From: Bacteroidales bacterium
GTDB taxonomy: Bacteria > Bacteroidota > Bacteroidia > Bacteroidales > UBA932
DNA length: 45,125 nt
Direction of reading: 5' to 3'
NCBI GenBank assembly: GCA_029009115.1
Contig: JAQXJU010000103.1
Span: 1-45,125 of the forward strand
Below are positions 42,326 to 45,125 of the stretch, one piece after another; the stretch's first letter is position 1, and every line of letters starts with the position of its first letter. Under the pieces are notes generated by a model, which saw only the letters and a list, made by a program, of their open reading frames with translations, had not been told where the DNA came from and ran no database searches. The translations under genes were made by a program, and so were the position numbers.

Positions 42326-42443
42326 TTTGCTAATTTCTCAAGTTTGACACTTGTATTCATTGCAGACTGACATATTTCGAGGCTACAGACCGCTGTAATG
42401 GCGATTTGTAGCCTCAAGATTTTTTTAGGATATGTAATGTTTT

Positions 42444-42583
42444 ATAGTTGTGATGGGGTGGACTTCGGTCCGGTACGCGCCTATGGCGCTATCCCTCCCA
42501 TTGGCCCTGTTGGGCCAATAGGCCCCTCCCGTTCACGAAGTCACGGGCGACTACGCCGCCCGAAGTCCACCCATCACAACTAT
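42444..42583. repeat. 140-bp GC-rich multi-branched palindrome at the 3' end of the transposase
   Basis: ATAGTTGTGATGGG(G)TGGACTTCGG pairs with CCGAAGTCCACCCATCACAACTAT (24 bp, one bulge); interior hairpins GCGCC-TAT-GGCGC, ATTGGCCC-TGTT-GGGCCAAT, CCCGT-N10-ACGGG. Confidence 0.85.
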
Positions 42584-44367
42584 CTGTCGCCATTATCCTC
42601 CTTTTTACGTTTTTTGGTCAACGATATGATGCTTCTCATCTGCTTCTTTGTGACTATCTGATAGTCCGTTCTAAAGCCTGCTGAGCCGTGCAGATGGTTT
42701 GTGAGATCTGTTCTTGTATAGGTAGGCACATATCCCTCTCCGTTGATACTCAGGAAGTTCATATCCTTCAGTGTGTCCAGGATTTCCCTTGTCGTGAAGT
42801 GCATACCACCTCTGTTTATCTTCTTTTCCAGATATCTATACAGCAGCAGTGACAGGAAGCATGTCAGGAAGTGGGCCTTTATCCTGTCATCCCGTTTCAG
42901 ATATACCGGTCTTGCGTTAAGATCGCTCTTGGTAATACGGAAGTCATTTTCTACAATCCATCTTCCGCTGTTCATCCTTATTACCTCTTCCGCTGGACCT
43001 TCCAAGTCTGTACATATGCAGTAGAAGCCATCGTACTGCGCCTCCTGATCTATCATTTCCTGATTCAGAGAGTAACTCGTCACCTGTGCGAGTTCTCCGT
43101 CATTGGTACAATGTTCCGCCTTTATGAACCTCTTTGCATCGTTAGGGCTCTTGCGCTTCCCCGTATTCGCTTTGCCTGATTCTAGAAGAGCCTGGGCTCT
43201 TTCTATCTGCCTGTTGCGGACATAGGACAGATAGTCGCGGTATTTGAACGAGAAGGTGACGATATAGCGTTGCTCAAGTGTTTCTCCGGTGGACATCTTT
43301 ACCGGCTCCCAACGCTCTTTGTAAAAGAGGGTTTCATGACACTCCCTGGCATCAACTTCCGTCAGGTCATAGGTTCTATCGGAGCCACGCATATGCCATC
43401 CTGACGTATCTAGAGCCCATTCCTGCAGTGTCTTGTTCATCTTCTTGACGGATTGAACCGTAATGAAAGACCTCTCGCTCACCGCATCATTCTTCCTGTT
43501 CTCGTATGATGACAGGCCTGCGTCGGTGCATACGATTATTTTGGATAACCCAAACTTCTCTTTAAGTATCTCCTCCATAGGCTTGAGCGTGGTGGTTTCA
43601 GCCTTGTTGCCCGGTTCAATGCACATCGCAAGAGGAAAGCCATCTCTGTCCACAAAGAGTCCCATCTGAACTATAGGTAGTGGACGTCCCTCCTTACAGT
43701 GACCATATTGCACAAGGCCACCTTCCTCCTCCCACTCGAAGAAGTAGTTCGTCAGGTCATAATAAACAACACTTGTGTCGCGCTTCCCAAGTTTGAGGCT
43801 GCGCTTGTACACATCCGCCTGTATCTCATTGAACTCTGTCGCCAACAGACTGAGAGCTCGATAGACCTGATGGATATCCTCTTCCGGCTGTTCAAGGAAC
43901 TTCCTGGCGTCTTCCAGTGACGACAGCTTGGAGCCGGGATACAGCAGACGAGTGTAAAGAAGGTGCGAAAGGATTTCGCTGAGATTGTACTTATTCTTGT
44001 GCTTCTTCTCGATTTTCTTGCAGATATAGTCCAGACCAAGCTCGTAATAGATCTTCTGAAGGAACAGATAACCGCCATTGTAGCAGCGTTGTTCGTCCTT
44101 CGCAACCAGAGTTGTTGGGGAATACTCCACTATCACTTTTCGGGCATTCTCTTTTTCCGCAGCCGTCAACTCGGCAACATATTTTTTTGCCTCGCCTATA
44201 GGGTCCGCATCCCCAAAGCGTGCCTTGAGATCATCAAGGGTGCCGAGACGCTCAATGTTTTTGGTCGAACATTTTCCATCGTTTGTGCGAAATGACTTCT
44301 GAACGTAGAAAAAAGTGTAATTTTTTGATTTGCAGGATTTTAATATCATATTTCCATCTTTTAACAT
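42580..44367 (-). CDS. IS1634/IS4-like transposase
   Basis: VVYYDLTNYFFEW, IVCTDAGLSSYENR, GRWIVENDFRITKSDLNARPVYLKRDDRIKAHFLTCFLSLLLYR (YREK-like/C1-type region). Start at MLKDGN (44367) or MILKSC (44349). Confidence 0.9.
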   Translation of the reverse strand: MLKDGNMILKSCKSKNYTFFYVQKSFRTNDGKCSTKNIERLGTLDDLKARFGDADPIGEAKKYVAELTAAEKENARKVIVEYSPTTLVAKDEQRCYNGGYLFLQKIYYELGLDYICKKIEKKHKNKYNLSEILSHLLYTRLLYPGSKLSSLEDARKFLEQPEEDIHQVYRALSLLATEFNEIQADVYKRSLKLGKRDTSVVYYDLTNYFFEWEEEGGLVQYGHCKEGRPLPIVQMGLFVDRDGFPLAMCIEPGNKAETTTLKPMEEILKEKFGLSKIIVCTDAGLSSYENRKNDAVSERSFITVQSVKKMNKTLQEWALDTSGWHMRGSDRTYDLTEVDARECHETLFYKERWEPVKMSTGETLEQRYIVTFSFKYRDYLSYVRNRQIERAQALLESGKANTGKRKSPNDAKRFIKAEHCTNDGELAQVTSYSLNQEMIDQEAQYDGFYCICTDLEGPAEEVIRMNSGRWIVENDFRITKSDLNARPVYLKRDDRIKAHFLTCFLSLLLYRYLEKKINRGGMHFTTREILDTLKDMNFLSINGEGYVPTYTRTDLTNHLHGSAGFRTDYQIVTKKQMRSIISLTKKRKKEDNGDR

Positions 44368-44664: not shown

Positions 44665-44737
44665 GCGGAAATAGCTCAGTTGGTAGAGCGCAACCTTGCC
44701 AAGGTTGAGGTCGCGGGTCCGAGCCCCGTTTTCCGCT
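44665..44737 (+). tRNA. tRNA-Gly (anticodon GCC), no encoded CCA
   Basis: GCGGAAA acceptor pairs TTTCCGC; anticodon arm AACCTTGCCAAGGTT; T-arm CGGGTCCGAGCCCCG. Confidence 0.95.
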
Positions 44738-44745
44738 CAAAAGAT

Positions 44746-44883: not shown

Positions 44884-44910
44884 CGCGGGTCCGAGCCCCG
44901 TTTTCCGCTC
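44884..44910 (+). repeat. 27-bp direct repeat of the tRNA-Gly 3' end (original copy 44712-44738)
   Basis: CGCGGGTCCGAGCCCCGTTTTCCGCTC identical in both places. Confidence 0.95.
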
Positions 44911-44957: not shown

Positions 44958-45125
44958 ATGGTATCGTGCGACGGATGGCAGGGTACTGGGGTTGGCATGG
45001 GGTAGAAGAATATCTAGAGAGCTGACTTGTCATTTCACGGGATTGCTCAATCGGCCTCAGAGGTGCTTCTGACAGGGGTCTCCCTGACCGGTGAAATTCA
45101 CCTCGGAAGGCAATGTGCCCCAGAG

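Follow-up and report, generated by a model that had tools for sequence, protein, structure and literature searches.

Palindromic insertions that keep the reading frame of their host genes are best known from Rickettsia. Miniature inverted-repeat transposable elements (MITEs) have terminal repeats conserved with a transposon and are accompanied by target duplications, and the bridge RNA of IS110 and the omega RNA of IS200/IS605 are encoded by, and conserved with, insertion sequences (ISs) having DEDD or HUH/TnpB-type genes. Here, we analyzed a palindrome located at the stop codon of an IS transposase gene in a 45,125-nucleotide stretch of a Bacteroidales genome (GCA_029009115.1, contig JAQXJU010000103.1; hereafter, the window). 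Among described systems, the Rickettsia palindromic elements (RPEs; Ogata 2000, as described in PMC2229807 and PMC3733652) are dispersed palindromes of approximately 105–150 bp, found both in intergenic regions and in frame in conserved protein genes, and their mover is unknown. PMC6649704 describes RPEs as having conserved terminal inverted repeats, with arm identity reportedly lost with age through decay after insertion. The same paper describes coding palindromes of Nematomorpha mitochondria, near-perfect inverted repeats in genes that stay paired while changing, for which template switching was proposed. Repetitive extragenic palindromic (REP) sequences, tagged with GTAG or CGTC and associated with REP-associated tyrosine transposases (RAYTs), are short dispersed palindromes of 20–40 bp with a fixed tetranucleotide tag (PMC3733652).

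The window palindrome belongs to a family of small folded repeats that had not been listed before and that is spread through a gut-bacterial genus, often lying in frame within essential genes. It is most probably a palindromic insertion element of Bacteroidales, small (~130–150 bp) and non-autonomous, that behaves like RPEs. A DNA search of 100 relatives detected the element in 32 further genomes of the genus and in one genome from another family; the copies were mostly not at an IS, and often several were present per genome. A covariance model of the core matched 255 of the 300 genomes of the window's genus. Copy numbers, which are lower bounds, ranged between species of this one genus from none to at least 18, the latter being reached in many genomes. 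Among 393 genomes of the order, only five were positive with the model: the own genome, a different genus in its family, and three further families. When 297 genomes across the phylum were searched by plain DNA comparison, the element turned up only in the own genome, which contains the IS copy and two copies of a second subtype (type 2), the latter within a larger repeat; no further type 1 copy was present there. The exact core had no match in IMG/VR, and a search of the element against Rfam 15 gave no match at or above the gathering score. Our literature searches revealed no earlier account of an element of this kind from Bacteroidales, which is not proof of none.

Some copies belonged to larger repeated units. 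Near-identical copies with an upstream terminator hairpin were found in two different families (L046 in genome G087 and L082 in G028), and the G087 contigs end inside it; apparently, a larger unit has recently spread horizontally. In G028/G052 (L080–L086), another abundant dispersed repeat (ACTGCAGGTGTAACATTTC..GGCACACCTGCAGTAACGG) adjoins several element copies. Units of GTGAAATTCACCTCG and GAGGGCCTTCTGA occur in a long dispersed repeat at window positions 45030–45125 and at L005, L210, and L211, which also adjoins both type 2 copies in the own genome.

Open reading frames continued through the element in genes identified with NCBIfam/Pfam as TilS (at two different sites), TrmB, RsmE, RlmB/TrmH, RsmA, a 23S rRNA methyltransferase-like protein, MurB, PBP1C, MazG, XerC, FolC, DnaX, and a ComEA-like protein. 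In several of these hosts the family match was split around the insert. Copies occurred in either orientation, those in genes being mostly antisense. Comparison of genomes G046 and G022 revealed empty sites in the RlmI-like gene and in FolC, and comparison of G007 with G226 and others revealed an empty site in MurB; the intergenic empty sites of G028/G052 were too rearranged to yield a junction. A pre-existing hairpin as the insertion target was considered and rejected, as the empty RlmI-like, FolC, and MurB sites had no palindrome. Two further observations concern the host genes. In many species, one loop of MurB (loci L167–L186) is a hot spot for insertions and holds at least three different in-frame short palindromic repeats (TCATTCTGAGCGAAGCGAAGAATCT, CATTGCGAGGAGCG..GACGTGGCAATCT, and the present element). 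The hosts in G022/G046 (L065–L070, L087–L091) include many in-gene copies in RNA-modification enzymes (TilS, TrmB, RsmA, RsmE, RlmB, RlmI-like).

A copy of the family consists of a conserved core of approximately 60 nt and a closing outer stem with arms of approximately 20–30 bp. Within the core, hairpins accompany an H-type pseudoknot (AGTC/GACT with CCCGT/ACGGG), and comparison of copies showed that the arms are near-perfect inverted repeats with a different sequence at almost every locus. In the window copy, positions 42444–42468 pair with 42560–42583 in a 24-bp outer stem, the left arm of which contains the transposase TAG (42580–42582; 42582–42580 as read on the minus strand). The stem has one bulged G because one base was deleted from the left arm, where the sister copies L006 and L007 have GGGG. 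The outer stem encloses GCGCC/GGCGC (42477–42489), ATTGGCCC/GGGCCAAT (42500–42519), and CCCGT/ACGGG (42528–42547). All pairings of the original prediction, including the outer stem over the TAG, were present where it had placed them. CCCGT and ACGGG do pair, not as a plain hairpin with a 10-nt loop but as the second helix of the minus-strand pseudoknot, in which 42549–42552 pairs with 42539–42542; the alternative GACTTCG/CGAAGTC pairings also exist, not as a conserved switch but as the outer stem and a part of the core of this subtype. RNA folding of the palindrome gave −77.5 kcal/mol on the plus strand (z −7.35) and −85.5 kcal/mol on the minus strand (z −8.65), with 0 of 200 shuffles as low in each case.

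Covariation supported both pseudoknot helices and the outer stem. In 59 cores, helix P1 showed double compensatory changes in 27 and 9 sequences at two pairs, with a covariation score of 0.274 versus 0.098 in shuffles. The second helix (PK) was unchanged within type 1 and compensatory across subtypes (CCCGT/ACGGG, CCCTC/GAGGG, CCCGC/GCGGG, and CCCAT/GTGGG). When full elements were compared, the window copy among them, double changes were present at 14 of the 22 outer-stem pairs, and the score (0.398 versus 0.138 shuffled) was reached by 0 of 500 shuffles. The sliding controls fell to background every time. Independent genomic copies and covarying stems, both named in the original prediction as possible support, were thus found, and its proposal of a structured RNA is supported by covarying pairs in core, pseudoknot, and outer stem. 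In addition, arm mismatches on the sense strand at 59 distinct loci were more often G-U (47) than A-C (16; p = 1e-4). The excess was strongest in copies antisense to the host gene (20 versus 3), and sense-oriented copies, a small sample, had 6 versus 4. This strand-biased wobble suggests that folding of the sense strand as RNA or single-stranded DNA matters, although avoidance of hairpins in the host mRNA could partly account for the bias in antisense copies. At L189 and L191, the pseudoknot region was longer by approximately 50 nt (GCCCTTTGGGCAAGTGTCCCCCGGGGGAC...), giving a long-core variant, the core being short at orthologous sites.

Orthologous copies in G022 and G046 showed how the element changes in place. 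Their cores were 86–100% identical over aligned positions, and the left arms were 50–82% identical and complementary within each copy; the coding flanks were mostly about 85–93% identical, less conserved flanks being lower. Bulges spoil three pairs in an ungapped count of arm changes, and only the TilS, RsmE, RsmA, and IS pairs were used; in the RsmA pair, seven stem pairs were altered on both sides. In TrmB, the core was inverted between homologous arms. At the RsmA and apbE-like loci, the core was approximately 50 nt longer in one genome than in its ortholog.

Compared with the described systems, the element resembles RPEs in being a palindromic repeat of 100–150 bp dispersed in the genome and inserted in frame in conserved protein-coding genes. 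However, no terminal inverted repeats are common to its copies, the arms differing at almost every locus; what is kept is the core only, with its covarying pseudoknot, the arms are locus-specific yet complementary, and one copy is carried on an IS. Because conserved terminal repeats are not present, we refer to it as RPE-like and not as an RPE, a comparison made with RPE descriptions. Like REP sequences, it is a short dispersed palindrome, sometimes intragenic, with ends able to supply a TAG stop, but it is ~140 bp long instead of a 20–40 bp hairpin and lacks an invariant GTAG/CGTC tag (GTAG in 27 and GTGG in 32 of 59 copies). With the Nematomorpha palindromes it shares near-perfect inverted repeats in genes that stay paired through change; those are mitochondrial, and a dispersed conserved core is not noted for them in the passages of PMC6649704 consulted. 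As a small, non-autonomous, dispersed palindrome, the element is also similar to MITEs, and of the options offered originally a MITE-like repeat inserted into the IS came nearest; nevertheless, its ends are not conserved with a transposase element, and the empty sites showed no clean duplication.

Because a transposase would find no conserved DNA termini, the single-stranded fold of the sense strand may be what the replication or insertion machinery recognizes. Arms would arrive with new copies, in line with the arm motifs that some copies in G026 and G039 have in common, and would then drift in concert through selection for pairing and/or hairpin-templated repair. Several points weigh against an RPE-like insertion element. 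A clean target-site duplication was missing from the empty sites examined, and no enzyme moving the element was found, RAYT or reverse-transcriptase partners not having been searched for. The conservation of cores at orthologous sites, beyond that of neutral junk, hints at function or inter-copy exchange, and the change in core length at two orthologous sites suggests core exchange without proving it. Finally, all compared genomes are metagenome-assembled genomes (MAGs).

More speculatively, the element could be a bacterial analogue of a short interspersed nuclear element (SINE), multiplying via sense-strand RNA (or single-stranded DNA), with the pseudoknot recognized by a trans-acting enzyme; we regard this as possible but doubtful. 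If true, it would explain the absence of conserved DNA ends, the G-U strand bias even in antisense copies, and arms that need only to pair, and the IS copy would, by moving horizontally, start new invasions.

It is rather unlikely that the copies form a functional host RNA family, in which each copy would be selected at its locus and would either yield a structured RNA that binds protein or act in RNA processing or stability. The true pseudoknot with compensatory changes, the sense-strand G-U bias, and orthologous cores that are 86–100% identical where the coding flanks are about 85–93% identical agree with such a role. However, the copies lie in either orientation and mostly antisense within unrelated housekeeping genes, their number varies from none to at least 18 across species of one genus, and the empty sites imply that hosts manage without them.

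The gene carrying the window copy encodes an IS1634-family transposase (NF033559, 360.8 bits; DDE_Tnp_1), in agreement with the initial IS1634/IS4-like DDE label. A scan of GTDB genomes yielded 28 loci with transposase relatives, and in 27 of them the sequence past the match end was read. The element directly follows the transposase stop in eight (L006, L007, L008, L010, L011, L012, L024, and L031; the L011 copy is cut by the contig end), and L009 has a degraded form. The presence in other IS copies that had been anticipated was therefore found, but not in most of them. Other palindromes follow the stop in three relatives, with a related core at L016 and a different core at L014 and L017; the latter two (L014:4031–4160 and L017:1782–1910) have the core CGGCGGC..GCCGCCGGGTATGCAT and long arms. 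The remaining relatives mostly have only a short hairpin near the IS end. The transposase identity of the carriers spans 96% to 66%; therefore, the association between IS and element is old but not universal. The transposase stop codon of an IS1634-type element would have received one copy in the distant past, and the IS may now be a passive carrier, perhaps with a side benefit from the copy as a 3′ end structure. The 96%-identical transposase was found in a MAG named Cryptobacteroides, which is probably the genus of the window as judged from this sequence match. The IS DNA had no match in plasmids, and the transposase had none in viral contigs.

A structure selected for the sake of the IS itself, as a terminator or a barrier to impinging transcription, appears improbable. 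The element lies exactly at the transposase stop and is common to IS copies with double compensatory changes, yet it is not followed by a U-tract, another conserved hairpin (42379–42415) already adjoins the IS end, most IS relatives lack the element, and most element copies are outside any IS. Nearly every IS1634 relative retains the loop AAATCGCCATTACAGCGGTCT of this hairpin, with a variable outer stem; owing to this pattern, the hairpin may be a signal related to the transposase or transcription. In the own genome, the IS end with this hairpin also occurs alone, as an 86-bp copy of 89% identity (C14:21244–21329, L005) that is either a remnant of the IS or a miniature form derived from it.

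An IS-encoded guide or bridge-type RNA directing transposition, as proposed originally, is very unlikely, even though a structured RNA with variable arms adjoins the transposase. Transposase type (DDE IS1634) and distribution exclude a guide RNA of the IS110 or IS200/IS605 type: the core occurs at hundreds of loci without an IS and is missing from most IS relatives. Nor did the arms behave as guides, since the only matches to 28 arms in their four genomes were the partner arm of the same copy and similar arms in sister copies. A chance palindrome or assembly artefact, for which only the exclusive use of MAG data speaks, is refuted by the dispersed copies in many independent assemblies and at the same sites in separate genomes, by fold z-scores of −7 to −9, by core covariation far above shuffles, and by the model matches in 255 of 300 genomes.

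The features of the window copy and its carrier are listed in Table 1. Beyond them, the 3′ end of a tRNA gene (GCGGGTCCGAGCCCCGTTTTCCGCTC, 44714–44739) is repeated approximately 170 bp downstream (44885–44910), which resembles an attachment site of a former integrative element.

Table 1. Positions of the palindromic element, its helices, and the carrier IS in the window
Feature	Position	Strand	Paired positions	Evidence
Outer stem, left (5′) arm, ATAGTTGTGATGGGTGGACTTCGG, holds TAG	42560..42583	-	42583-42560/42468-42444	Pairing, fold; compensatory changes in sister copies
Pseudoknot helix P1, 5′ strand AGTC	42549..42552	-	42552-42549/42542-42539	Covariation, 27 and 9 double changes at two pairs, 59 copies
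Pseudoknot helix PK, 5′ strand CCCGT, in P1 loop	42543..42547	-	42547-42543/42532-42528	Invariant in type 1, compensatory in other subtypes
Pseudoknot helix P1, 3′ strand GACT	42539..42542	-		Covariation
Pseudoknot helix PK, 3′ strand ACGGG, then conserved AGGGG	42528..42532	-		Covariation
P3 hairpin CCTATTGGCCC-AACA-GGGCCAATGGG; inner part variable in sequence and length among copies	42497..42522	-	42522-42512/42507-42497	Copy comparison
P4 hairpin GCGCC-ATA-GGCGC, optional in family	42477..42489	-	42489-42485/42481-42477	Copy comparison
Outer stem, right (3′) arm, CCGAAGTCCACCCCATCACAACTAT	42444..42468	-		Fold; compensatory changes
IS1634-family transposase gene, host of window copy	42580..44349	-		NF033559, 360.8 bits; DDE_Tnp_1
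Separate hairpin GAGGCTAC-AAATCGCCATTACAGCGGTCT-GTAGCCTC, between element and IS end	42379..42415	-		Read from sequence; kept also in IS relatives without the element

The family is present in most species of a common gut genus, where it interrupts many conserved enzymes whose frames stay open; its covarying pseudoknot is retained, and the sequence of its stem is renewed in a concerted manner. It is a system for studying the multiplication of palindromic elements, the tolerance of proteins to random loops, and the carriage of such an element between lineages by an IS. Annotators should be aware that segments derived from the element are part of TilS, MurB, and similar proteins in this genus.
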